Below, in pieces: positions 2,475 through 20,476 of a stretch of 64,000 nucleotides of DNA; position 1 is the stretch's first letter; each line of letters begins with the position of its first letter. This DNA is from Clostridia bacterium (GTDB lineage: Bacteria > Bacillota > Clostridia > Oscillospirales > CAG-272). A program made the translations under genes and the position numbers. The notes below the pieces were generated by a model that saw only the letters and a program-made list of their open reading frames with translations, had not been told where the DNA came from and ran no database searches. The stretch spans positions 124,001 through 188,000 of the forward strand of contig JAFTKO010000021.1 in assembly GCA_017453205.1 (NCBI GenBank), read 5' to 3'.

Positions 2475-5400
2475 TTATCTGTTTCTCTTCTTTTTCTCCG
2501 CCATGACCGCGAATGCAACCGCTGTTATAATACCCATGGGGAGCATACCGATGACGGAACCGCAACCGCCCTCATCAGTATCGACGGGTGCATTGGTGCC
2601 GGGCTCATTGGTAGATGCATCGGTTGCGGGCTCGGTATCGGTGTTGTCGGGAGGATTGGTCGTGCCGGGATCGGTGGGTTGATATTGTTCCATATCGGAG
2701 TAGTCCACATAGAACATTGCCGAGGATACCCACTCACCGGTGGAGAAATCGCGTCCCATGACCAAAACTTTGTCCTCATATACACGGACGTAGTAGCCTT
2801 GGCTGCCTGTCAAAGCCTCGCCGCTTGCTTTATTGTAGCTGGTCCACAGATAAGCGGTGGACGCGGTATTGAAGATGGTGGGCAGCTCGTCACTGCGCTC
2901 ATACATCGTACTCTCGCTGTCCAATGTCCAGTGGCTGTGACCGTTGAACATGATGACCTCGGGATACTTTTCGAGAACGGCACGCAAGCCCGCTTCGGGG
3001 GTTGCACCGTTCCAGCCCTGTCCCTCAAGACTGCCTGCTACGGTGTTGTACAAGGACTGATGCAGGAACAGGAAGGTGGGGGCGTTGACGTTGCGGCTTT
3101 CCTGCAGCTTTTCATCCAGCCAATTGAGCTGTGTTTGCGACAGATAAGCGTTGACGTTGCTGACGGGATAGACGTCGGTGCCGAGGAAGATATAATGATA
3201 CCCGTCCTTCCAGAAGTCGTAGTAGATCTTATCGGGGTGTGTTCCGTCGGGGAGATATGTATTCTCAAGGAACAGGTTGACACCGTCCTTATAGGAAACC
3301 GCATTGTAAAAATCGTGGTTGCCGACCGCCAAGAAGAGTCCGGGAAGTGTACTGTTTGCCTTGACGGCATTGTAGATCTCCCACATGTTCGCATACTCTT
3401 CGGCTTTGCCGTTGTTTGCCATATCGCCGTTGATATAAATACCCGTGCTGTTGGGGCTGTTGGTGGCAATGTCCTCCAAAACCTTTTGGAAGTTCTTGTT
3501 GTAGGTGTCGGTGTCGGATACGTTGATGTGGATATCGCTGATGACTTGGAACTCGATCAGCGGTGCTCCGTAGTCCTTTCCTGCGGTGCCCGTGGGCAGT
3601 GCCGCTTCCACATAGGTTTCGGAAATTTCGGAATTTTTCATGGTGTACACCAACAGCTTGGTCGCGCCCTGCGGGATCATGGTATTGGGAGTCATCGCAT
3701 GCTCGGTAACGGTTCCTGTGACCTTGAATTTTGCAAGTGCGGTGTAGCCCTCCAAAGGACCGTTGTCATCCGCCCAATACATGAGGATCGAGGTGGCGCT
3801 GTTGTTTTCGGAAAGTGTGACCGAAATGGTGCCGTCCGCCATGCCGTTGGTTGCATCCTCCAAGGTGTAGGTTGCCGATATCGGAGCCTCCAAGGACTTA
3901 GAGGCATCGGTCTTGCTTACAATTTCGATTTCAACGATCTCGGTTTTTGCGGTTGCATAATCGTTATTCGGCACAAAATATACAATATATTTGCCTGCAG
4001 GGAGATTGTAATCGTTGGTATCGGGTCTGGCGGATTTGCTACCGGTTCTGATATCTACGGCAACACCGTTGGTTTCATCGGTAATATAATACCAGTAGAT
4101 CGAATATCCCGTGTCATCCTTGGGCTGAATGCCGATCCAGTCCTTTGCGGCGGCGGAGCCTGTACCGTATACCCAAACGGGCTCGCCCTCGAGATAGACT
4201 CTCTTGGCGGGAGCCACATGCTCGGTGATGGTGATCTCGATGACCTCGGTTTTGTCTTTTGCGTATCCGTTGTTGGGAACCAAATAGATGACATAATCAC
4301 CCGCGGGCAGATTATAATCGTTTGCGTCGGGGCGGGTGGAGGTACTTCCGCTTGCCTTGATGTCAACCGGAACACCGTTGGTGGCGTCGGTGATGTAGTA
4401 CCAATAAATCGAGTTACCGGTGTCATCTTTGGGTTGAATGCCGATCCAGTCCTTGTTTTCGGCAGAGCCGTATGCGGTTACCCAAATGCTCTCACCTACC
4501 AAATAGACGTCTTTATCGGTGGAGAGGATCGAGGTCTCTTCCGCAATGCCGGATTCGATTGCGGCATCGATTTTGGCTGTCAGCACGCCGATCTCATCTG
4601 CGCTCTTTGTGCTGACGTTCTCGGCGGCGATCTCAATATTGCCGTCCGTGTTTTTGTTGGTACGAACGATGTATTCGTTGCAGCTTCCCTCCAAAGATTT
4701 ATACCAAGACAGGCACGCGCCCTCGGTGATCTCAACAGAGAAAGAATTGCGAAGAATCAGTTGCTCCGAAGCAACATTTGCCGCTTGATATCCACAACCT
4801 ACCAAACCGGCGACGCGAACGTCCGAGGAGGCACCCCAAGGAGTGGTGGTCCAGTCTACAAACGCGGTTCCGATGAGGGTGTTTTTGTCATTGAGGTTGT
4901 AGCAATTTTCAACCACATAGCTGTATCCGTCTTTTAAAGTAATGAAAGCGCCGAGAATACCGCCGTAGGAGATTGCCGCGGAGGTTTCGCTGTTCATTGT
5001 AAAGCAACCTGTGTTGTAGCAGTTTTGGATCAAAATATCACCGTTGTAAGCGTTACCTGCGGGATCGGACTGAGAGATCTGTCCCACAATACCGCCAAAG
5101 GCACTTTCGGATTTGTTGGCATTGGCTTGGTTATCCAATGCAATGTCTGCGTGGTTGGCACAGTAGCTTACCGTAGCGCCGAGACCGACGGTGCCTGCGA
5201 TACCGCCCGCGTAGTTGATGTTTCCGAGGACGTTGACTGCGCCCTTGTTTTCACAAAATTGGATTGTGGAGGACCATGCCATACCTACAATACCGCCAAT
5301 GCGTCCTGCGGCGTTGTATTTGCCGCTGTCGGTAAATACATAAGTAGCCTTTACCGAGCAGGTATCGCTGACCGTACAGTTGGCGATGGTGTTAAAGCTT

Positions 5401-6275
5401 GCGTCGGGGGTGTCCGTAGGATCTGCCGCCGCGATGCCGACGACCGTACCGACTACGCTGATACCCGTGGCGGTGATTGCGTCAAGATTGACATTATTGA
5501 CGGTTGCTCCGTAGATCGCGCCGAACAGACCCGAACCCCATGCAGTGGAAAACTCATGCGCGGTGTTGGGGGAGCATACGGTACCGTTCATGATACGGTA
5601 ACCCTGTCCGTCGTAGTGACCGCCAAATGCGGCATACGCGGTTTTGGATGCAAAGTAGTAACCGATCGAGTTCAGCGTTTTGCCGTTCAAGTCGATATCG
5701 GCGGTTTGCTTGAAATACTTTCCGTCGAACGGATCGCTGACCGCTGTCGGCTGTGTGCCGTCACCGATCTGTGCCGACATCCATGCCAAATGCGCCGCTT
5801 TTTCGATGAGGTAAGGAGATGCCTCGGTTCCCTCACCCGTAGGAGCCTCGGTGTCGGTACCGTTCCAACCGTCTGCCGCGGGGGCTTCTACCACCTCGAT
5901 CTCCGCCCAATCGGTCATCGACGTTGCATAACCATTGTTAGGTACAAAATAAACCTTGTATTTGCCTGCGGGAATGTCGGCAGACCAATAGGACTTGTAC
6001 TTTGCGTTTATATCGACGGGATTTCCGATATCCGCATCGGTCAAGTAATAATAATACCATGAAGAGGTAGCACCTTCGGGTGCAATACCCACCCAGTCGG
6101 TGGTACTGCCAAGGGTGCCTGTGACCGTGACCATAATGCTTTCACCTACCGTATAGGTGGCTTTGTCGGTCGTGATGTCGATGTTTTCTGCCGCGGAAAC
6201 CAACACGACCGGAACCATTGATAATACCATTGCCAGGGTTATCAACAGTGCGAGGATTTTTTGGACTTTTTTCAT
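2475..6275 (-). CDS. Secreted multidomain metallophosphoesterase with Ig-like and GLUG-like regions
   Basis: A 1,266-residue surface protein. The start is the ATG of MKKVQKI, set by an AAGGAGG site seven bases upstream, not the earlier in-frame ATG. Approximate order: signal peptide 1-28; Ig-like domain 31-130 (DKATYTVGESIMVTVTG); a 148-570 region of GLUG-like repeats (GGIVGM, GGIAGTV, CENKGAVNV); two more Ig-like domains near 582-790 (GESIWVTAYG, GEPVWVYGTG); a beta domain; then a calcineurin-like phosphoesterase at about 905-1165 with SDIHIN, NGDMAN, VGNHDF and NGHSHW metal-ligand motifs. The C-terminus is a Thr/Pro/Asp linker, GGCGSVIG, a hydrophobic helix and a KKKRNR tail, which looks like a wall or membrane anchor. 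First gene of the likely operon reaching the left edge. Confidence 0.85.
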   Translation of the reverse strand: MKKVQKILALLITLAMVLSMVPVVLVSAAENIDITTDKATYTVGESIMVTVTGTLGSTTDWVGIAPEGATSSWYYYYLTDADIGNPVDINAKYKSYWSADIPAGKYKVYFVPNNGYATSMTDWAEIEVVEAPAADGWNGTDTEAPTGEGTEASPYLIEKAAHLAWMSAQIGDGTQPTAVSDPFDGKYFKQTADIDLNGKTLNSIGYYFASKTAYAAFGGHYDGQGYRIMNGTVCSPNTAHEFSTAWGSGLFGAIYGATVNNVNLDAITATGISVVGTVVGIAAADPTDTPDASFNTIANCTVSDTCSVKATYVFTDSGKYNAAGRIGGIVGMAWSSTIQFCENKGAVNVLGNINYAGGIAGTVGLGATVSYCANHADIALDNQANANKSESAFGGIVGQISQSDPAGNAYNGDILIQNCYNTGCFTMNSETSAAISYGGILGAFITLKDGYSYVVENCYNLNDKNTLIGTAFVDWTTTPWGASSDVRVAGLVGCGYQAANVASEQLILRNSFSVEITEGACLSWYKSLEGSCNEYIVRTNKNTDGNIEIAAENVSTKSADEIGVLTAKIDAAIESGIAEETSILSTDKDVYLVGESIWVTAYGSAENKDWIGIQPKDDTGNSIYWYYITDATNGVPVDIKASGSTSTRPDANDYNLPAGDYVIYLVPNNGYAKDKTEVIEITITEHVAPAKRVYLEGEPVWVYGTGSAAAKDWIGIQPKDDTGYSIYWYYITDETNGVAVDIRTGSKSARPDTNDYNLPAGKYIVYFVPNNDYATAKTEIVEIEIVSKTDASKSLEAPISATYTLEDATNGMADGTISVTLSENNSATSILMYWADDNGPLEGYTALAKFKVTGTVTEHAMTPNTMIPQGATKLLVYTMKNSEISETYVEAALPTGTAGKDYGAPLIEFQVISDIHINVSDTDTYNKNFQKVLEDIATNSPNSTGIYINGDMANNGKAEEYANMWEIYNAVKANSTLPGLFLAVGNHDFYNAVSYKDGVNLFLENTYLPDGTHPDKIYYDFWKDGYHYIFLGTDVYPVSNVNAYLSQTQLNWLDEKLQESRNVNAPTFLFLHQSLYNTVAGSLEGQGWNGATPEAGLRAVLEKYPEVIMFNGHSHWTLDSESTMYERSDELPTIFNTASTAYLWTSYNKASGEALTGSQGYYVRVYEDKVLVMGRDFSTGEWVSSAMFYVDYSDMEQYQPTDPGTTNPPDNTDTEPATDASTNEPGTNAPVDTDEGGCGSVIGMLPMGIITAVAFAVMAEKKKRNR

Positions 6276-6342
6276 AACGGAGCCTCCTTGTAAAAAATAT
6301 TTTTGTGTTTGCGCACATGGGATATCGTCCTTGCGCAAATTC

Positions 6343-6371
6343 AGTATAACATTTTCGGTTTGCAATGTCAA
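6343..6371 (-). promoter_or_regulatory. Sigma-A promoter for the metallophosphoesterase operon
   Basis: On the minus strand, TTGACA (6371-6366) and TATACT (6348-6343) are separated by 17 bp, a near-consensus housekeeping promoter. The expected transcript start leaves a leader of about 60 nt before the ATG at 6275. Confidence 0.75.
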
Positions 6372-9329: not shown

Positions 9330-10223
9330 ATGTATACGGATAATTATATTGTAAGATCGTTGGAATTGCATTTGTTTTTTGGGCGTATTATGAAAGAACA
9401 CGCCCTGTTTTTAAGAGCCGGCTTTACTCCCGCCGACCCGTCTTTTTCGGACAAAGCGGAGTATTACAAAAAAGAATTTGAAGCTTTGCTGAGCCGTGCC
9501 GTAGCGCTTGGGAACGGTGTTGTCAGCCAAGAGGTTTTGCGCTCGGGAGAGCTGGTCACAAAATTTACGGCGTTGGCGGAAAAACAGACCGAAGCCTTTA
9601 CCGCCATTTCCATCAACAAAGAGATCACCGCACGGGAACAGCGCTTGCGTCCCGGCTCCCGCGGCAACAATTTCGGTGCCGAGGCACACCGACGCGTCAA
9701 ACAGCTCAATCAAAGAGCCCTGGAGCTTTTGGACGGCTTGATTGCCTTGAAAGAGCAAATTTTGAAAAATGTTTTGAGCTGTAAAATGTTTACGGGAAAT
9801 TACCCGTTGCTGATCGAACACATCATCCGTGAGGCAAAGCTTTACCGTGGGTATGTGGAAATGTTGGAAAAAGAGGGGCGGTTGTCAAACGCGTCCATGC
9901 AGGACACCGAATGCTTTTGGAATCAAATTATGATGGAGCATGCCCTGTTTATCCGCGGACTTTTGGATCCCTCCGAAACCGAGCTGATCCATACGGCGGA
10001 CGAATTTGCGGAGGACTATGCAAAATTGCTGGAGACCTGCCGTCAAGCGCAGGCGCGGGCCATGGAGGGGACCTCCTTGGAGGAAACGCTGAAGTTCAGA
10101 GATTTCAAGGCTGCGGGCACGCAAGGGATTACCGGGTGCGGAATCCGTTCGGTGATCTTACCGCTCCTTGCCGACCATGTGCTGAGAGAAGCCAATCATT
10201 ATATCCGATTACTGACTATATAA
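9330..10223 (+). CDS. DUF2935 family protein (tandem helical-bundle repeat)
   Basis: A 297-residue protein. The ATG at 9330 follows GGAGGA by four bases; an upstream TTG in frame overlaps that site and is rejected. Two homologous halves are visible, each starting with the signature E/KEHALF(L/I)RxxxxP (near residues 21-32 and 199-211), as in DUF2935 proteins of Bacillus and Clostridia, which fold as four-helix bundles with conserved His/Glu residues that look like metal ligands. Role unknown in the family. No operon partner: it is flanked by the divergent HAD gene and a strong hairpin at 10223-10260. Confidence 0.8.
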   Translation: MYTDNYIVRSLELHLFFGRIMKEHALFLRAGFTPADPSFSDKAEYYKKEFEALLSRAVALGNGVVSQEVLRSGELVTKFTALAEKQTEAFTAISINKEITAREQRLRPGSRGNNFGAEAHRRVKQLNQRALELLDGLIALKEQILKNVLSCKMFTGNYPLLIEHIIREAKLYRGYVEMLEKEGRLSNASMQDTECFWNQIMMEHALFIRGLLDPSETELIHTADEFAEDYAKLLETCRQAQARAMEGTSLEETLKFRDFKAAGTQGITGCGIRSVILPLLADHVLREANHYIRLLTI

Positions 10224-10260
10224 CACAAGCGCCGCGGGCAATGCCCGCGGCGCTTGTGTT
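10223..10260. terminator. Strong GC-rich hairpin between convergent genes
   Basis: A perfect 17-bp stem (outer ACACAAGCGCC, inner GCGGGC) with an AAT loop. The downstream T-run is short on either strand, so termination is likely but not certain. It separates the DUF2935 gene from the end of the giant gene. Confidence 0.7.
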
Positions 10261-10281: not shown

Positions 10282-13200
10282 TTAAGATTGTAAATAGGTT
10301 ACAAGCTGATTGACGTATTCCTGTACCATGGCTTGGTTCATTGCAAATTGCGTAGCCAAGTTTCCGCCGCTTTGGTAGGGTTTTACCCAAAGCAAGTCAA
10401 GCGCGCTACCCAAAGCGCTGTCATAGACAGCCACAAAGTCCCAAGAAGCACTGTTCATGGTAATGTTCAGTACTTCTCTTGCCATCTCGGAATCCGCTGT
10501 CGATGTTCTCATCAACTGCTCTTGATAGAGAGGCACCAGCTCCTCATGGTTGTACTTGCCCATGGTGTCCAAAACCGCGCCGACCTTATCGCTTACTTCA
10601 TTTCCGAGAACGGCGATGACATTGTGCGCTGCCATAACACCGCTTGAGTATTCTGCTTGCTCTTCATTATACTTGGGGAGCGGCAGAATGCCGTAAGCAG
10701 TATCGGTCAAGTTCTGACGGGGCGTGGTGGAACGGTTGAGCATGTCACTCAAGAACAGGGTACGGTTTTCTGCCATCATCGTATACATCTCGTCTGCCGT
10801 GGTCTGGTATGCGCCTGTCATTTGCCACATATCCACCAAGCGATACATCAAGTCTACCATTCCCTCGGAGAGCGAGACAGTCATGGTGCCATCGGTCTCA
10901 TCATAGGTGGCATAGGAGAACCCGCCTACCTGTGCAAAGCTGTAGATATTTCCGCCTGTTAAACCAACGATGCCAAAGAGATCTTCCGTGCCGACAATTC
11001 CATCACCGTTTAAATCATTGTAGAAGTCCGCGATATACGCTTGCATCTTTTCCATGGTCCACTCGCCGTTCATCACGATTTCGTAGAAGTTTTCAAAACC
11101 GTAGTTATTCATCAGCTCAACGTTAAAGTAAATGGCGGAGGTCATGTCATATGCCGACATGGTGATATCACCGACTGCGGTGTATTGCTTGCCAAGGAGG
11201 TTTGCGGAGTTGTTGTAGCTCTTGTTCCACCACTCGGCATCAAGCTGCAGATTTTCGGCTGCGCTCAAGTCCGCATAATAGCCATTGGTGACCAACTTGG
11301 GGACAAAGCGTGCGCTTTGGGAAACAAAGTCCACGTCACACGCGCCGCTATTCATCATGACTTGTATTTGTGTGGTGTATTCGTTAGGAGCAACCTGTAC
11401 ATAAGACAAGCACACATTCAGTTTTTCCTCGGTGTAGCAGTTACGCTCGTAGACTGCGGCGTTGATCATATCGGAAAGATCCTCGGTTGTTACCATATCC
11501 CAGTTCGTTCCGGTGGTGGTGGGAACCATGATCGTAACCTCGGCACCGTCAAAATCATAGGATACGTCGGGCTCATCGTCGCCGATGTCGGGAGCATCGG
11601 TTTCACCGTTGTTGCCGGTGTTGTTGTCGGTTTCACCCTCGGAGGCTTTGCCGCAGCGCTCACAAACGCCGTCCACATAGCTGTGTCCGAGTGCTTCGGA
11701 GAAAGTACTTGACAATGTTCTGCCGCAATCCAAGCACTCTACGTAGCTGTAACCACCCTCGGTACAGGTAGCGGTGCTTTCAACAACGGTTTGTGTGTTC
11801 TCGTGCGGGCAAACGTAAGGAACCAAGGTCTTGCCATCATCGCCGATTGTGAAGTGTTCTACTTCTTCACCCTCAAAAACGATGATGATTTTGCCGTCCT
11901 TTTCAATCCATTCTGCCCAAGCTTCGTCATCGACGGTTACAGAACCATCCTCGTGCTTGCACTCAACTCTTGCATAAATCGTTTTGTCGGTGTAGAACTC
12001 GTAAATCAGAGTGTAATCCAAACCATCTTCTGCGACCATACCCGAGTCGGTATAAATATAAAGCATATCGGGACGCGCTTGGTTGCAGTTGGCGCAAAAA
12101 TCGTTTGCATCATAGTTGTGACCGGTGGGGACAAGAACCTTTTCCCATGTTTCACCACACTTGAGACAAGCGTGTTTTTCGATTCCGCTTGCCGTACAGG
12201 TTGCCGCAACAGACTCGATGATCTCGGAGTTCATGTGTTGGCAATTGCCGCAGACGGTACAAATACCGGCGTCATCGTAGGTGTGATCTGCCAAAGCAAA
12301 CATTTTTTGATACCCGATACCGCAATCGGGACAACTGTATGTCTCATAACCGCCGGCAATACAGGTCGAGTCCACTTTTTCGACCAAGGTAAGGTTGGGA
12401 TGCGTGCAAGGCGTTTCTGCTTCGCCTGCGTTGTAGTCCTTGAGCGCCATATCGATTTTTTCAATCAAACTGTCAAATTCTTTGGACAACATATAAAGCT
12501 CATCATAGGTGGTTGCCATTTTTACACGGCTGTAGATATCGGAACGAATTGTTTTAAAGTCGTCATATTCCGCAAGCTCGGTAAAGGTAGCATCGGCGGT
12601 ATATGTTTTCCAAGTCGTATTGATATTGTTGATCAGTTCTGTTCTGTATGCTGCTATATCTACTTCTGCACCGTTTACATATCCGCAGTGCTCGCAAATA
12701 CCATCGACAAAGCTGTGGTCGCCATACACAAATTCGCTCCAGCTTTCGTTACAGTCCTTGCACATGTACACATACTCACCCGCAGTAGTACAGGTTGCAT
12801 TGGTGGGAATGGAGATGGTAACGACATTCAAGTGTTCGCAAGCGCCGCAAACCGTGCATTTGCCGTCGGTATAGCTGTGTCCGGTAGCGGGAATGCCTTC
12901 CTGCCATTTCTCACCGCAATCGGGGCATTGGTAGAGAGTATAGCCGCTCTCGGTACAGGTGGCTTCCTTACTTTCTGCAATGACTGCGTTTCCATGCACA
13001 CAAATATTGCTCAAGTCGGCTTCTATTTGTTCTACAAGCGCATTGTACTCTTTGGCAATTTCAAAAAACTCCTCAAACATCATTGCTTCTGTGCAACGAG
13101 TCCTCAGTTCAGTGCGAGCAGTCATATAGGTCTTGTAGTTTTCCAGCGTTTTGAAGTTTGCATCCGTTGCGAAAACTCTCCATGAAGTGGCGAAATAATT

Positions 13201-16200
13201 ATTTAAGGTTTTACGGATGCTTTCCACATCTCCGCCGCAAGCGTAAAATGTATCGGTGAGCTCCATTCTGAGCATTTCAAACTCTTCGTAAGACGCATCA
13301 ATGTTGTTGACATCGACATAGTCATACAAGTTGTTGTAAAACTCATAGAATCTGTCGTTGATTTGACAGTAGGGTTCTGCAGTCATATCCAAAAGGATGC
13401 TGTAAGCAGCCCACGCATTCGCCATTTCGACGCGCAGTTGTTCGATTTGGTTTTCGATATCGCTGATTTCCTCAAGCATCTCGGAGATTTCCGTCATCAT
13501 TGCCTCAAACTCGGTATAATAGAGTTTAATTTCAACGACGGAAGTAGCAGACATGATTTTTTCCTGCAAAGTGCAGAATCTATCCTTGTAGTCGGTGTTT
13601 TCAAGGACAATGTAGAATTTCTCATGGGAGCTGTATTTCTCCCAAGTAATATCCATGTCATTGATGGTGTTTCTGATGGCAGAGGAAAGCTCTTGATCTT
13701 CAGAATCTGCGCTTTCACCGCAACGTTCACAAACGCCGTCTACATAGCTGTGTCCAAGCGCGGGGAGCTCAGCGCCCCAACCCATACCGCAATCAAGGCA
13801 ATATGTTTCTTCAAAACCACTTTGCGTACAGGTGGGATCTTGCGTTTTGGTTTCTGTATTTTCGTGCTTGCAAGTTTCCTCAATGCTATCCAGACTCAGC
13901 GCGCCGTCCATGCCAATCGTGAAATAATATTTGTACTCACCGATAGAGGCAAGGAGGAGGTTGCCGTCCTCATACATTTCCCACCAGCCGCCGCTGATAA
14001 CGGTGTTGTAGGTACCATCCTCCATGACGTAGACGATGGTAGCCTCCAGGTTCCCGTTACCGTAGAATACGATGTCATACATGGGCGGCGTTACCTGTTG
14101 ATTGTAGGTGTAAATGACAGAGCTTGAAAGAACAGCGCGAATGCGGTCAGTCAGCGAAAGATGCTTCATGAAAATGGTATCGGCATCTTCTACCGTGGTA
14201 ACCGTATAGATTTGCTCCAAATAAGCGGTGTGTTCTTCCTTATAGGAAGCGTATTCTTCCAAAGAGTTCAGTACATTACCGTAGGTGCCGAGGAGTTCGT
14301 TCCAATGGCTTTCCATTTGATCTACGCGGTCATTGATAATGGATTGCAGATCGTCGGTGTCGGAACCGTTGCCCTCCAGCAACGACTCGATTTCATCTGC
14401 CATAACAGCAAATTCATTCTCCATCGCATCAATGATATCGGTAGAGGTTGCCGACTTGACTGTTTGATAGATAGATTGATAATTCGCTTCGTAGGCTGCA
14501 AAATTATCCAGTTCCTTCAAGCCGTTTTCGAGATAGGAGTTCCAAATTTCCTCCAAATCCTGCAACATTTCTTCAATGTATACTTGCAGCTCGTTGTCGG
14601 CATCTCCCTCGGAGATACCGCAACGCTCGCAGATGCCGTTTGTATCAAAGGAGTGTCCAAGTGCAGGGAAAGAGGTTCCCCAACCGGTACCGCAATCGCT
14701 GCAGTGGGTCATTTCCGAACCGCTTTCGGTACAGGTAGGCTCTTTGATGGTGGTTGTTGCATTCAAGTGGTCGCATTCGGAGGGATCGGGACGCTCCACC
14801 ATGCTTAAGGTGTAGCCGTCATCGTTCACGGTAAAGCGTTGAACGATATAACCGCCATCGATAATGGCAACATAGTCACCGTCATATTCCCAAGTTGCCC
14901 AAGCCTCTTGGATTTCCGTGACACCGTCTTCATTCACATATTCGACTCTGCCATAAATGGTACGGTCGGAATAGAACTCATAAGTAACCGTGTAACCGTC
15001 TTCGGAATATGTGAAGAAATAAACGATGGCTTTATCATCGGGCGTGTCGGGCTGCTCTTCCTCCATGCCGAGATCTTGTTTGATCGCAGCAATCAGTGAA
15101 TGGATCTCCGCAGAAAGGGCATCCAACTCTTCCAAGGTGGTGACATTGTTCATCTCATCCAAGAGAAGCGCGTACTTTTTGCAGTAGAAGTGATCACTGC
15201 CAAGTGCGTTTTCAAGGTCATAGTCCTTGTAGAAGTTGTTCCAAGTCTCTTCGGTTTCCTTGATGCGGAGTGCGATCTCGTTTGCAAGCTCGTCACTTTC
15301 GCTCTCGCCGCAACGCTCACAAACGCCGTCCACATAGCTGTGTCCGAGAGGAGCCAAGTAAATTTCCTCTACTGTCTTACCGCAGTCGGTACAGTAGATA
15401 GAAGTGGAACCCTCGTGGGTACAATCCGGCATAGCAGTAACGGATTGCGTGTTTTCGTGCAGACAGGTCTCTTCCTCTTGTTCTACAAGCGTCAAGGTCT
15501 TGCCATCCTCATTGACGGTGAAGCGTGCTTCGGAACCGCCAATGGAAACCACGATCTCTTCGCCATCCTGCTTCCATTCTGTCCAAGTTTCATCTTTCGT
15601 CCATGTACCATCCTCGGTCACATATTCGATTCTGAGGCAAACGGTATGGTCGGTGTAGAACTCCCAATTCAGATAGTAGTCAGAGCCTTTTTCGGTGTAG
15701 AGATAAACGATTACTTTTTCTTCGACAGAGCCGCTGTTCTCGCCGCAGCGTTCACAAACACCGTCCACATAGCTGTGTCCGAGTGCTTCGGAGAAAGTAG
15801 ATTGCAATGTTCTGCCACAATCCAAGCACTCTACGTAGCTGCTACCGCCTGTGGTACAGGTAGCGGTGCTTACAACAACGGTGTGTTTGTTTTCATGCGG
15901 GCAAACGTAGGGAACCAAGGTTTTGCCATCATCGCCGATGGTGAAGTGTTCTACTTCTTCACCCTCAAAAACAATGATGATTTTTCCATCTTTTTCTATC
16001 CATTCTGCCCAAGCCTCTTGATCGATGCTTACAGAACCGTCCTCGTTCTTGCACTCAACTCTTGCATATATTGTTTTGTTGGCGTAGAACTCGTAAATCA
16101 GAGTGTACTTATCTTCGGTGTCGGTATAAATATAAATGATAGTTTTTTCATCGGGAGTATCGGGGTTTTCGGTTTCGGACTCGCCGCAACGCTCACAAAC

Positions 16201-19200
16201 ACCGTCTACATAGCTGTGTCCGAGTGCAGGTGTGATGAGATCGCCGAAGCCATCATCGATCTTTTCTCCGCAATCGGCACAAACGCGGGTAGTGATACCG
16301 TTTTGTGTACAGGTTGCCTCTTGCACTGTCACGTACCGGATATTTTCATGTGTACAGGTTTCCTCGATATACAAGGACAAGGTCTTGCCGTCGTTATTGA
16401 CGGTAAAGCGCATTTCTTCCGCGCCGTCCTCTTCCTCGTAGATGAGCACAACAATATCACCGTCGTATTCCCATTTTGCCCAAGCTTCCTGTTTTTCTAC
16501 GGTTCCGTCACTGCCGGTCATTTCTCCGTAGCCGTAAACGGTGTAGTCGGAATAGAACTCATAACGGACATATAAGCTGCCCTCGGTCATGGTAAAGATA
16601 TAAACGGTAGCTTTTTCATCGGGAACGTCGGGATTCTCCTCAGAGGCTTCGCCGCAACGCTCACAAACACCGTCCACGTAGCTGTGTCCGAGCGGGTCGG
16701 TGCTAAACAAGTTCATGATATCGCCGCAATCCAAGCACTCCACATAACCGGAACCGCGTTCGGTACAGGTGGCGGGAGTTGTTTCAACCCTGTTTTGGTG
16801 TTCATGCGGGCAAACGTAAAGAATCAATGTCTTGCCGTCATCGCTGACTGTGAAGCGTTCTATTTCCTCTCCCTCATAGAGAAGTACAATCATCTTATCG
16901 TCATATTCCCAAGCTGCCCAGTCTTCTTCTGTTTCAACAGAACCGTCGATGTTAATGCTTTCCATATACCCACGAACGGTGTAGTCGTTGTAAAACTCAT
17001 AGATTGCTTTTCCACCGTCCCAGATGTCGGTATAGGTGTAAAGAATTTCTTTTACTACGGGCTCTTCCTTTCCGCACATCGTGCAGGCGCCGTTTTCGTA
17101 ACTGTGGTCAGCCAACGGGAGCTCTTCATGACCGGAGAGCCATTTTTGACAGTTCTCGCAGTAATCGCCTGCGGAGTACCCGTGCTCTTGGCAGGTGGAG
17201 TTAGTTGCGGGAACCGTGGTGATGCTGTGTCCGGTTGCGGGCAGGATCACCGAAGTGGGCTCCGTGATCGGCGTGGTGCAAGCTTCATCCTCAAACCATG
17301 CACCGCAAACGCAGACGTAGTAGGTCTTGACGCCGGAGGCGGTACAGGTGGGCGCTTTGCCGTTGACCGTCTTTGCCACGCTGTGGGTATGCTCCTTGAT
17401 CTCTTCGATCACATATCCGCACGCGGTACAGGTGATGCCGTGCGTGGTGGTAGCCTCGTCATAGTCGGGTGTGTGAGCCGCTTGATCCAGCTTTTCATTA
17501 CAACGGGTACAAGCGTACCAGTGTCCGTCGGCGTCACAGCTGAGGCTCGAAGCAGGGTTGTGTCCGAGTGCCGCGGTCGCGTCATCGGTGTGGGTATGTT
17601 CACAACGGGAACAGGTGTACGTGGTGTAACCGTCCTTGGTACAGGTGGGTGCGGTAACCTCGGAGATGTAGCTGTGACCGAGAGCCTCGGTTTCATCATC
17701 CGTGTAGGTATCGCCGCATCCGCAGGTGTAGACAGTATGACCGCCCGCAGTACAGGTGGGTGCGGTAACGGCAGCGGTGTAACGGTGACCGTAAGCGTCG
17801 ATCGGTGCATGACCGGTCAACACCGTATGACAGGTAGAGCACTCGATACCCGCGGTGTAGCCGATTTCGGTACAGGTGGGTGTTACGGGATCCATAGCCA
17901 CGGGAGTGTGTCCCTTTGCAAGGTCGATTACCGTGGTGTGGTCGGTAATGAGCTGTTGAGCCTGGGCATCGAGGAACCATTTACCGCAAGCGCAGGTATA
18001 GTAAGCGATATTACCGCTGTGCGTACAGTCGGGAGCGACAGCCGCGACAGCCGTCAGTTGGTGGGTATGCGAGATGGCGGGGGTGATCACATATTCGCAC
18101 ACGGTACAAATTTGTGCCGATTGCTCGGTTGCCTCGGCACCGGGCGTGTGTGCATTGAGCTCACCGCGTTCACCGCATACGGTACAAACGTGGTAGTGAC
18201 CTTCCTCGGCGCTGTTCCAAGCGGTGGAATAAGTATGCGCCGTAGGCTGAGTGTAGTTGAGCATGACCGTGTCGCCGCAGGAGGTACAAACCTTTTGGGT
18301 GTAGCCTGCTGTGGTACAGGTGGGCTCCACAATGGTGGTTGTATGCTTGTGGTTGGTTTGCGGGAGTGTTACGGTATATTCATCTTGACAGTAGATGCAA
18401 CGGAAGGTGTTGCTGCCCGCCTCTTGGCAGGTCGCATTTTTGTGATCGTGCAGGACATAGAGGTGTCCGATGGCGGGGATCACCGTGTCGTATTGGGTGT
18501 GGCAGTCCTCACACTCAAAGTGCATGGTACCGTTGGCAGAGCAAGAGGTCTTGGTGACAACACTGCTGTGCCAGTTGTGTCCGGTAGGTGCGGTATAAGA
18601 GCCGGGGATCTGCTTTCCGCAATGGAGACAGATCGAATAGCCGCCCTCGGTACAGGTGGGCTCCACCTTGTGGACATCCTTGCTGTGACCGAATGCACGG
18701 CAGTATTGATCGGGAGTCAGTTCGGCGGGAACGTAGTAGGAGAAGTGCGTGGTGGTAAAGGTGACGTAGCCGTTGCCGTCAGCATCCTCGGAATAGGTTG
18801 CCGGCATGGGCTCCAGCTCTCCGTCGGAGATATACCATACCACGATCTGGTCGGGGTTTTGTCCCTCGGTGAGGGTGTAGGGGATACGGATGGTTGCCGT
18901 ACCGCCAAGCTGGCTGATTTCCTTGTCGGTGGTGATGGTAAAGCTATAGATGGGATTGTCGCCAAGCAGAGCGAGGTCTTCGTCTTGCAAATCAGCTTTC
19001 TCAACTGCTTCCTGCTTTGCGCTGTCCGTAAGCGTGGATGCCGAAATGTTGATGCTTTCACTGCCGGAAAGCGTTTCCTTGATGCCATCGTCAAGACCGA
19101 TGGTTGCATCGGGGAACTCCACCTCGGTGATGTTATCCAAGTCGGAGTCGCTGACATCCACATTGGTGTCGGCGGCGCTCATCGTCTTTTTGGTAGCGTC

Positions 19201-20361
19201 ACAGTCGGTGTGCGCGCACTTGTACGCGGTGACGGTGTCGGTGCTGTTCGCCTCGTCGATCACCCAAGTATGCGCATCGGGATCGGAATAGCTTTGTGTT
19301 TCGCTGTTGGCGCTTGCCGTGTGATATTTACACTCGGTGTTGTTGCAGACCTTGGTCTTGACACCGTCCTCAGTACAGGTGGCGGGAGTGGTGATTGCCC
19401 AGTAATAGGAGTGCTTTTCGATGTACTCGGTCTTGCTTTGCTCTGTATGACAGCTCTCGCACTCACCCTTGTAGGTGACCGCGTACTTACAGGAGGTTGC
19501 ATCGTACAGTGTGGAGTCGTTCTCGGTCCAATTTTGCACGGTGTGTCCCGTGGCTGCCACATAATCACCCTTGTAGCTGTAGCCGCAAGCACAGGTGTAA
19601 GTGGTGTAGCCCTGCTCGGTACAGGTGGGTGCTGTTACTGCAGAAGTAAAGCTATGTTGCTCGTAACCCGATTTTTCGGTGGTGTGCGAGCAGGTTGCGT
19701 CGTGCCAGTGGTAGCTGTCATTGTGGCTATACTCTTGCTTGTAGCTGTGACCGGTCGCGTTGGTGTAAGTATCGCGATAGCTGTAGCCGCAAGCACAGGT
19801 ATAGGTGGTGTAGCCCTGCTCGGTACAGGTGGGCGCGGTGACAGCGGATGTGTAACTGCAGTTTTCGGTCACCGAATGCCCGCCGTTGGAGCAGGTGCCT
19901 GTGTGTGTGCCGTTGTTGTTGGGCGTCCAGGCAGTCACGTTGTGACCAGTCGCTTCGGTGTAACTATCCGTGTAGGTATCACCGCATGCGCAGGTGTGGG
20001 TGGTGTAGCCCTGCTCGGTGCAGGTGGGGGCGGTCACGCTTTGCGTATAGCTGTGCGTGTGTCCGTCCGTTACGGGAATAGGCGCGGTTTTGGTTTTGCC
20101 GCATACGGTACAGGTTTTTGTCAACACACCCTCGGTGTCAGCCGTGGGTTCGGTGGTGACGGTACCTGCATCCCAGGTATGCTCCGCCTTGTCGCTCACC
20201 AGATCGGCGTGCTGACAGGTGGATGTGTGCCAGTGGTATGTATCATCACTTGTCCACGTGTCCGCATAAGTGTGGTCGTGTACACGGCACGCACTTAGGA
20301 CAACGGGGAGAGCAATGAGCAGACACAGGACACAGACAAGCGTGAACAGTCTCTTTTTCAT
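10282..20361 (-). CDS. Giant Cys-rich-repeat lipoprotein with C-terminal solute-binding-protein domain
   Basis: One uninterrupted 3,359-residue ORF starting at ATG after AAAGGAG. Residues 1-25 are a lipoprotein signal with LSAC lipobox. About 25 copies follow of a 40-80 residue unit of the form P-T-C-T-x-x-G-(Y/F)-x(3-5)-C-x(1-2)-C-G, usually with a closing GH(S/N)Y; the Cys and His could bind metal. Insertions break up the array: a beta domain near 385-560, about seven copies of a beta unit marked YEFY and EAWAxWEYDG, and about seven helical segments of about 80 residues marked by ExxWxxY. Residues about 2935-3359 form an ABC solute-binding-protein domain (NGEWTMEKMQAYI; NDLNGDGIVGTEDLFG) homologous to the lipoprotein at the left window edge. 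No permease is adjacent. Binding target unknown; the array looks like a long stalk carrying the binding domain. Confidence 0.85.
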   Translation of the reverse strand: MKKRLFTLVCVLCLLIALPVVLSACRVHDHTYADTWTSDDTYHWHTSTCQHADLVSDKAEHTWDAGTVTTEPTADTEGVLTKTCTVCGKTKTAPIPVTDGHTHSYTQSVTAPTCTEQGYTTHTCACGDTYTDSYTEATGHNVTAWTPNNNGTHTGTCSNGGHSVTENCSYTSAVTAPTCTEQGYTTYTCACGYSYRDTYTNATGHSYKQEYSHNDSYHWHDATCSHTTEKSGYEQHSFTSAVTAPTCTEQGYTTYTCACGYSYKGDYVAATGHTVQNWTENDSTLYDATSCKYAVTYKGECESCHTEQSKTEYIEKHSYYWAITTPATCTEDGVKTKVCNNTECKYHTASANSETQSYSDPDAHTWVIDEANSTDTVTAYKCAHTDCDATKKTMSAADTNVDVSDSDLDNITEVEFPDATIGLDDGIKETLSGSESINISASTLTDSAKQEAVEKADLQDEDLALLGDNPIYSFTITTDKEISQLGGTATIRIPYTLTEGQNPDQIVVWYISDGELEPMPATYSEDADGNGYVTFTTTHFSYYVPAELTPDQYCRAFGHSKDVHKVEPTCTEGGYSICLHCGKQIPGSYTAPTGHNWHSSVVTKTSCSANGTMHFECEDCHTQYDTVIPAIGHLYVLHDHKNATCQEAGSNTFRCIYCQDEYTVTLPQTNHKHTTTIVEPTCTTAGYTQKVCTSCGDTVMLNYTQPTAHTYSTAWNSAEEGHYHVCTVCGERGELNAHTPGAEATEQSAQICTVCEYVITPAISHTHQLTAVAAVAPDCTHSGNIAYYTCACGKWFLDAQAQQLITDHTTVIDLAKGHTPVAMDPVTPTCTEIGYTAGIECSTCHTVLTGHAPIDAYGHRYTAAVTAPTCTAGGHTVYTCGCGDTYTDDETEALGHSYISEVTAPTCTKDGYTTYTCSRCEHTHTDDATAALGHNPASSLSCDADGHWYACTRCNEKLDQAAHTPDYDEATTTHGITCTACGYVIEEIKEHTHSVAKTVNGKAPTCTASGVKTYYVCVCGAWFEDEACTTPITEPTSVILPATGHSITTVPATNSTCQEHGYSAGDYCENCQKWLSGHEELPLADHSYENGACTMCGKEEPVVKEILYTYTDIWDGGKAIYEFYNDYTVRGYMESINIDGSVETEEDWAAWEYDDKMIVLLYEGEEIERFTVSDDGKTLILYVCPHEHQNRVETTPATCTERGSGYVECLDCGDIMNLFSTDPLGHSYVDGVCERCGEASEENPDVPDEKATVYIFTMTEGSLYVRYEFYSDYTVYGYGEMTGSDGTVEKQEAWAKWEYDGDIVVLIYEEEDGAEEMRFTVNNDGKTLSLYIEETCTHENIRYVTVQEATCTQNGITTRVCADCGEKIDDGFGDLITPALGHSYVDGVCERCGESETENPDTPDEKTIIYIYTDTEDKYTLIYEFYANKTIYARVECKNEDGSVSIDQEAWAEWIEKDGKIIIVFEGEEVEHFTIGDDGKTLVPYVCPHENKHTVVVSTATCTTGGSSYVECLDCGRTLQSTFSEALGHSYVDGVCERCGENSGSVEEKVIVYLYTEKGSDYYLNWEFYTDHTVCLRIEYVTEDGTWTKDETWTEWKQDGEEIVVSIGGSEARFTVNEDGKTLTLVEQEEETCLHENTQSVTAMPDCTHEGSTSIYCTDCGKTVEEIYLAPLGHSYVDGVCERCGESESDELANEIALRIKETEETWNNFYKDYDLENALGSDHFYCKKYALLLDEMNNVTTLEELDALSAEIHSLIAAIKQDLGMEEEQPDTPDDKAIVYFFTYSEDGYTVTYEFYSDRTIYGRVEYVNEDGVTEIQEAWATWEYDGDYVAIIDGGYIVQRFTVNDDGYTLSMVERPDPSECDHLNATTTIKEPTCTESGSEMTHCSDCGTGWGTSFPALGHSFDTNGICERCGISEGDADNELQVYIEEMLQDLEEIWNSYLENGLKELDNFAAYEANYQSIYQTVKSATSTDIIDAMENEFAVMADEIESLLEGNGSDTDDLQSIINDRVDQMESHWNELLGTYGNVLNSLEEYASYKEEHTAYLEQIYTVTTVEDADTIFMKHLSLTDRIRAVLSSSVIYTYNQQVTPPMYDIVFYGNGNLEATIVYVMEDGTYNTVISGGWWEMYEDGNLLLASIGEYKYYFTIGMDGALSLDSIEETCKHENTETKTQDPTCTQSGFEETYCLDCGMGWGAELPALGHSYVDGVCERCGESADSEDQELSSAIRNTINDMDITWEKYSSHEKFYIVLENTDYKDRFCTLQEKIMSATSVVEIKLYYTEFEAMMTEISEMLEEISDIENQIEQLRVEMANAWAAYSILLDMTAEPYCQINDRFYEFYNNLYDYVDVNNIDASYEEFEMLRMELTDTFYACGGDVESIRKTLNNYFATSWRVFATDANFKTLENYKTYMTARTELRTRCTEAMMFEEFFEIAKEYNALVEQIEADLSNICVHGNAVIAESKEATCTESGYTLYQCPDCGEKWQEGIPATGHSYTDGKCTVCGACEHLNVVTISIPTNATCTTAGEYVYMCKDCNESWSEFVYGDHSFVDGICEHCGYVNGAEVDIAAYRTELINNINTTWKTYTADATFTELAEYDDFKTIRSDIYSRVKMATTYDELYMLSKEFDSLIEKIDMALKDYNAGEAETPCTHPNLTLVEKVDSTCIAGGYETYSCPDCGIGYQKMFALADHTYDDAGICTVCGNCQHMNSEIIESVAATCTASGIEKHACLKCGETWEKVLVPTGHNYDANDFCANCNQARPDMLYIYTDSGMVAEDGLDYTLIYEFYTDKTIYARVECKHEDGSVTVDDEAWAEWIEKDGKIIIVFEGEEVEHFTIGDDGKTLVPYVCPHENTQTVVESTATCTEGGYSYVECLDCGRTLSSTFSEALGHSYVDGVCERCGKASEGETDNNTGNNGETDAPDIGDDEPDVSYDFDGAEVTIMVPTTTGTNWDMVTTEDLSDMINAAVYERNCYTEEKLNVCLSYVQVAPNEYTTQIQVMMNSGACDVDFVSQSARFVPKLVTNGYYADLSAAENLQLDAEWWNKSYNNSANLLGKQYTAVGDITMSAYDMTSAIYFNVELMNNYGFENFYEIVMNGEWTMEKMQAYIADFYNDLNGDGIVGTEDLFGIVGLTGGNIYSFAQVGGFSYATYDETDGTMTVSLSEGMVDLMYRLVDMWQMTGAYQTTADEMYTMMAENRTLFLSDMLNRSTTPRQNLTDTAYGILPLPKYNEEQAEYSSGVMAAHNVIAVLGNEVSDKVGAVLDTMGKYNHEELVPLYQEQLMRTSTADSEMAREVLNITMNSASWDFVAVYDSALGSALDLLWVKPYQSGGNLATQFAMNQAMVQEYVNQLVTYLQS

Positions 20362-20447
20362 GTTTTTTCTCCTTTTCTGTCAAAAAATTTGTTTTGGGGT
20401 GAAAAAGATTGTTGCGTCACATACATATAATATATGTTCCAATTGTT

Positions 20448-20476
20448 ATTATATACCAAAGCAATCTATTTGTCAA
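20448..20476 (-). promoter_or_regulatory. Perfect-consensus sigma-A promoter for the giant lipoprotein
   Basis: Minus-strand TTGACA (20476-20471), 17-bp spacer, TATAAT (20453-20448), matching the consensus at every core base. Leader of about 80 nt, A/T-rich. It implies that the 10-kb gene is well expressed. Confidence 0.85.

Follow-up and report, generated by a model that had tools for sequence, protein, structure and literature searches.

The gene described here comes from a lineage of Clostridia, still uncultured, that lives in the hindgut of ruminants, and it encodes a predicted lipoprotein in which a solute-binding domain of the maltose-binding type lies at the far end of a long array of Cys/His modules. 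We consider it moderately probable that this protein is a lipid-anchored, probably zinc-stiffened stalk that presents a solute-binding protein (SBP)-type, probably glycan-binding head outside the cell wall and serves as a receptor or adhesin instead of docking to an importer as its binding subunit. Judging from the lipobox, the lipid would hold the N-terminus at the membrane; the N-terminal block may pass through the cell wall or attach to it; and this block of 15 modules, together with the variable series of units (Cys/His, beta and helical) that follows, would build an elongated shaft, probably stiffened by zinc, whose middle would gain and lose modules as spacers do. The stalk would span the wall and, if extended, could measure on the order of 100 nm (3-4 nm per unit being assumed), and the head at its tip would bind an oligosaccharide, a polysaccharide or another surface beyond the wall.

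The gene occupies positions 10282-20361 on the minus strand of the window, by which we mean the whole 64,000-nucleotide stretch of DNA that was analysed, situated within the 272,848-base contig C14 of a 2.29-Mb host genome (G000) that is 73% complete. ORF calls and translation gave 3,359 stop-free codons, in agreement with the one continuous ORF of the first-pass annotation and with the strand being minus, and neither a stop nor a frameshift was found in this frame between the array and the binding domain. The same interval read on the plus strand is interrupted by stops, and antisense ORFs of up to 1,204 aa on that strand were dismissed as coding-frame shadows. The gene and its flanks comprise the following features, given in window positions:

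20448..20476, minus strand: sigma-70-type promoter, TTGACA-17-TATAAT (12/12 consensus match)
20369..20376, minus strand: Shine-Dalgarno AAAAGGAG, read in the sequence and kept in both orthologues
20287..20361, minus strand: signal peptide and lipobox LSA/C, residues 1-25 (translation, by eye)
19201..20187, minus strand: first 5 Cys/His modules, residues 59-387 (profile HMM)
18706..19176, minus strand: conserved Cys-free domain, about residues 396-552 (translation, family scans)
17068..18693, minus strand: ten further Cys/His modules, residues 557-1098 (profile HMM)
11647..17064, minus strand: variable stalk of 11 Cys/His modules, 7 beta units and 7 helical units, residues 1100-2905 (profile HMMs)
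11560..11646, minus strand: acidic linker, residues 2906-2934 (translation)
10285..11559, minus strand: head, a predicted maltose-binding-type solute-binding domain, residues 2935-3359 (profile matches)
10222..10260, no strand assigned: perfect 18-bp hairpin, a possible terminator with no clear T-run (sequence)

In the window protein, iterated profile HMMs resolved 26 modules of the Cys/His kind along with 7 beta (YEFY) and 7 helical units, matching the initial estimates of about 25 Cys-rich units, about seven YEFY beta units and about seven helical inserts. Residues 1-1098 form a conserved N-terminal block in which 15 Cys/His modules are arranged around one Cys-free domain, for which no Pfam or NCBIfam family was found at E ≤ 0.001; scans of the whole protein and of its segments against Pfam and NCBIfam returned no convincing family for the Cys/His modules, the beta units or the helical units. 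COMMD8_HN exceeded its cut-off for the whole protein (33.9 vs 27 bits, E = 4e-8) and was rejected, given that none of the individual stretches reaches the cut-off and the longest-scoring one spans 26 residues; we read the score as chance matches added up over the helical repeats.

A survey of 35 genus genomes identified the SBP-array fusion in three by head similarity, or four with a more distant variant, a narrow distribution that we count against our reading. Head matches at E ≤ 1e-40 with 47-50% identity were found in a sheep-colon MAG (G023, contig JAFVOP010000108.1) and a water-deer cecum MAG (G004, contig JAGANE010000112.1), and one of 33% identity in a roe-deer colon MAG (G018, contig JAFTXB010000037.1); the other genus matches at this threshold were stand-alone SBPs of 27-31% identity. 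The sheep-colon orthologue is a single complete ORF of 4,557 residues with 37 Cys/His, 13 beta and 8 helical units by profile HMMs. The water-deer copy lies at the ends of two contigs as an N-terminal part of 1,662 residues (17 Cys/His, 2 beta and 3 helical units) and a C-terminal part of 702 residues (1, 2 and 0), which we infer to belong to one gene, and the roe-deer variant, a frame of 2,222 residues whose N-terminal end is open, combines a Cys-rich array of another kind with an SBP at the C-terminus. Among the orthologues the ends are collinear, with the N-terminal block of the window protein 66-67% identical to that of each, and the middle varies in unit number and order (26/7/7 vs 37/13/8); it is on this combination that the long stalk of the first-pass annotation can be upheld, as an interpretation.

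The stalk gene of the sheep-colon genome is followed by genes for a 492-residue protein, MoxR, DUF58 and BatA/VWA, and about 20 kb downstream in the host genome lie frames of 497, 341 and 294 aa, the last with a near-identical protein start; because these frames are of like size and in the same order, the locus is probably orthologous between the two genomes. A Pfam scan of the genes adjoining the stalk gene returned a GDSL lipase, a metallophosphoesterase, an ADP-ribosylglycohydrolase with HTH, a HAD hydrolase, DUF2935, a metallo-beta-lactamase fold, NERD and a histidine kinase, with no functional link to the stalk gene and no transport genes among the neighbours scanned. One frame of the window (2478-6371, minus strand, 1,298 residues) has a calcineurin-like phosphoesterase domain at residues 943-1147 only, and the rest of it is without a Pfam family at E ≤ 0.001. 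A second SBP gene, a 481-residue frame at the window's left edge (G000:C14:123750-124961, minus strand), is found some 9.3 kb beyond the end of the stalk gene, on its downstream side, and adjoins a GDSL lipase gene.

The promoter, described at first sight as perfect in consensus, is so at all 12 positions (20476-20448, minus strand), and its -35, its -10 and their spacing are conserved upstream of both orthologues. The strings TTGACAAA, GGTATATAAT (at equal spacing) and GAAAAGGAGA are identical in both orthologues; most of the surrounding DNA differs. By its signal peptide with lipobox, a feature already noted in the first reading, the predicted product is a lipoprotein, the lipobox Cys being residue 25, and lipoboxes were likewise read by eye in the orthologues (FGA/C and LGA/C). 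At the other end, the 18-bp hairpin sits between the stalk gene and the converging DUF2935 gene; it is absent from the list produced by the terminator scan.

The head is, by profile, a maltose-binding-type SBP. Alone it matches SBP_bac_1 at E = 1e-4 with 22.9 bits, below the Pfam cut-off of 26, and a small 4-row head profile reached a solute-binding protein at E = 0.18 only; a 40-row family profile matched Thermotoga maltose-binding proteins at E = 7e-8, the best of its matches, within the PDB sequence set, to proteins that bind maltose or arabino-oligosaccharides. Eight of the 40 rows match SBP_bac_8 and six match SBP_bac_1 at E ≤ 0.001, and the window's head is full length and keeps the conserved positions of the family. 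The homology to solute-binding proteins first proposed for the terminal domain of about 425 residues is in this way sustained by the family profile, but not by the single domain, which stays under the Pfam cut-off when residues 2935-3359 are searched separately from the modules. In a tree of 40 SBP domains, consisting of the window's and 39 others gathered by similarity to it and not as a random sample (each matching at least 340 profile positions; shorter matches and duplicate loci were left out), the four heads that sit on arrays group in a single clade (99/91), which favours a single fusion event followed by later change in the array over a separate fusion for each. The head is 46-50% identical to its orthologues vs 66-67% for the N-terminal block, and because the block is better conserved than the faster-diverging head, it is probably more than a passive spacer. 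The faster divergence of the head and its score below the Pfam cut-off both count against the reading that we prefer.

Judged from profile matches, the head belongs to an expansion of SBPs that are mostly unlinked to permeases. The host genome contains 27 head-profile matches, about 25 of them distinct, and 13 matches to the permease family PF00528; no head-profile match has a PF00528 match within 5 kb, the nearest distance being 6.7 kb. The corresponding counts were 1/10 in the sheep-colon genome, 0/19 in the water-deer genome and 0/34 in the roe-deer genome (1/63), on contigs short enough for neighbours to be missed, so that across the four genomes, with 10 to 34 SBP matches each, one match in 90 is near PF00528. 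The exception, a sheep-colon SBP 1.9 kb from a permease, is counted against our reading. The permeases of the host genome, which from their arrangement (with Pfam run on two Pst-set genes) we take to be a PotBC-like system accompanied by an SBP of its own, a Pst set, two pairs of oligopeptide type, one single gene and two pairs on contig C43, include in those C43 pairs genes that adjoin large secreted proteins. In three of the five SBP stretches tested, a secreted neighbour matches GLUG or GDSL lipase above cut-off.

Other SBP loci were seen in the same genomes and their relatives. Contigs C29 and C37 of the host genome share two SBP matches with identical scores, which may reflect segmental duplication or MAG redundancy. 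On contig C16 of that genome, a 993-residue protein (L043, 2901-5879) carries its SBP domain after a different ectodomain and a stretch that looks like a membrane segment, and the next frame (L043, 5895-7586) encodes a secreted protein containing 2 Cys/His modules. Six SBP matches stand in tandem on one strand in G013:C79:31452-41177 (within L073), and a first look at some other family genomes gives 100 to 195 unscored SBP candidates.

The main rival to a receptor or adhesin on a stalk is an importer role in trans, in which the stalk is a flexible tether and the head, having picked up solute beyond the wall, returns to a permease whose gene lies elsewhere in the genome. We regard this as unlikely. 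It draws on the full-length head with its conserved family positions, on the presence in the host genome of permeases without an adjacent SBP of the head family, and on the same ratio of one SBP in 90 near a permease. The maltose-type lipoproteins of SBP_bac_1 and SBP_bac_8 share with the window protein a full-length domain (by profile) and a lipobox; an importer SBP of this kind would, however, be looked for with permease genes adjacent and with its domain near the lipid anchor, whereas here the nearest PF00528 match is 17.2 kb from the stalk gene on the same contig, with no permease within 17 kb, and the domain starts at residue 2935, about 2,900 residues from the lipid at Cys 25. The length of the stalk also differs between orthologues. 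The stalk and the want of a linked permease lend support to the suggestion that the protein would not be a simple transporter subunit.

That the SBP fold binds a surface protein or polymer after losing solute binding, with the Cys/His stalk as a mere spacer, seems to us rather improbable. To our knowledge, neither CD0873 nor PsaA carries a long stalk. The design of stalk and head fits such a role, and SBP lipoproteins active as adhesins are known in CD0873 of C. difficile and in PsaA (PMC6816091); according to that paper, however, CD0873 retains its ligand tyrosine and its transporter role, being the SBP that serves an ABC transporter. Both are SBP-type surface lipoproteins, the type that we propose for the window protein as a receptor or adhesin, and by analogy with CD0873 an adhesion role of the stalk protein is plausible. 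For the prey-catching device suggested in the first-pass annotation, the analysis found nothing in support.

The Cys/His modules likely bind metal, probably zinc. Six Cys and two His are invariant in all 29 distal modules, taken from the window protein together with the orthologues, a count that stands apart from the 15 modules of each N-terminal block and that is biased towards complete modules by detection with profiles built from Cys-bearing ones. The pattern C-x-H, C, C-x2-C, H, C-x2-C is kept throughout, the sole other invariant column being one Gly; all eight ligand-type residues are present in every Cys/His module of residues 1100-2905, and by number they would be enough for two tetrahedral sites per distal module. 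Over residues 1-1098, 66/69 Cys and 49/63 His are identical across the three proteins, whose pairwise identity is 58-67%. The only clear match of the modules among solved-structure sequences is the Thomasclavelia ramosa IgA protease 9qa6, whose ZBD region is matched in two stretches at E = 6.6e-15 (PDB sequences). Matches to the zinc-finger chains 2i13, 2dlq and 1mey (E 0.013 to 0.51) were put down to shared Cys/His composition.

This likeness supports metal indirectly, through modules whose own zinc sites are predicted only: in the IgA protease report (PMC12237041), the zinc sites of ZBD1 and ZBD2 are putative and assigned by prediction, the fold is considered by its authors a possibly novel metal-binding fold with validation pending, and the cryo-EM map resolves residues 32-876, after which come the ZBD modules, unresolved there. 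The authors propose a spacer or hinge role for the ZBDs, which sit between the functional part and the anchor, as the modules of the window protein do; the protease has two short module runs and a sortase-type anchor, in contrast to the 26 modules, lipid anchor and SBP head found here. Disulfides as in EGF-like stalks, with no metal, are very improbable: CxxC pairs are indeed common to both module kinds, but invariance extends to the two His just as to the six Cys, the IgA protease is described as having no disulfides despite 24 Cys (PMC12237041), and DsbA and VKOR, the two oxidases covered by the search, had no match in 6/6 genomes (2/6 of them at least 90% complete), their controls matching in 8/14 and 3/14. 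Metal is the better reading because of the invariance of all eight residues, the likeness to the IgA protease and the missing DsbA and VKOR matches taken together.

Exact internal repeats of the stalk gene are present at 30 nt and none reaches 40 nt; inexact repeats reach up to 90% identity over 366 bases. Between two internal copies, dN/dS is 0.36 in a single comparison of 139 codons, where 22 of the differences are synonymous and 34 non-synonymous, which we count in favour of the lipid-anchored stalk and head. Misassembly of the array is very unlikely, since there is no exact repeat of 40 nt and the same arrangement recurs in another assembly. An artefact behind the long array or its SBP fusion, to which the 90% repeats and the splitting of the water-deer copy across two contigs might point, is hardly credible against a one-frame fusion in the sheep-colon MAG, a stalk-head junction seen again in the water-deer MAG and the lack of exact repeats of at least 40 nt.

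Beyond the genus, 52/395 sampled family genomes match the head at E ≤ 1e-55, with 4 candidates per genome scored in a sample that lacked the water-deer and roe-deer genomes; among the matches listed, frames longer than 1,000 residues occur only in the host and sheep-colon genomes, the next being 969 and 743 residues and most being near 510. The module profile matches 31/35 genus genomes at E ≤ 1e-5, often in giant frames, and, at E ≤ 1e-6, 12/398 genomes in a sample of the phylum, among them the genome that contains the window. Other giant module proteins of the genus include frames of 5,471 residues (G023:C69) and 5,087 residues (G025:C179). Giants of the G023:C69 type resemble the window protein in their related module arrays and, for G023:C69, in a lipobox read by eye, and differ from it in their ends, with an SBP match in 0/13 array-bearing frames (12 stretches). 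Five of these frames continued past the stretch; one of the five was traced to its end, where it has no SBP, and 4/13 are open at the C-terminal end.

Giants with Cys/His arrays and differing ends were seen in L096, L097, L098, L101, L105 and L107, where inspection by eye found a dockerin-like repeat (L101), a membrane helix (L098 and L107) and a lipobox (L097 and L105). A paralogue of the window protein lies in the sheep-colon genome (L103, G023:C103, 1828-5076): this further lipoprotein shares the N-terminal block and the beta and helical units, and its tip is cut by the contig end.

Our search of the open-access literature in one library returned no relevant precedent for SBP-repeat fusions, permease-less SBPs or giant Cys-rich lipoproteins. 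SusD-type glycan receptors of Bacteroidota are surface lipoproteins that capture glycan, with a fold and an envelope different from those of the window protein. We raise, as a tentative and rather doubtful extension, the possibility that the present protein is a zinc-built fibre whose transporter-derived head is held at a distance of tens of nanometres from the outside of a Gram-positive wall, and would be a Clostridia counterpart of the SusD-like receptors by function, not by descent, in a lineage that may have multiplied SBP lipoproteins, mostly without linked permeases, as surface receptors and not as importer subunits. The stalk protein would be a conserved, testable case of an importer-type binding domain that has come to sit at the end of a giant stalk, and one in which the Cys/His module is put to much larger use than in the IgA protease. 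With one SBP in 90 lying near a permease, the finding questions the habit of calling such gut-metagenome proteins transporter subunits.
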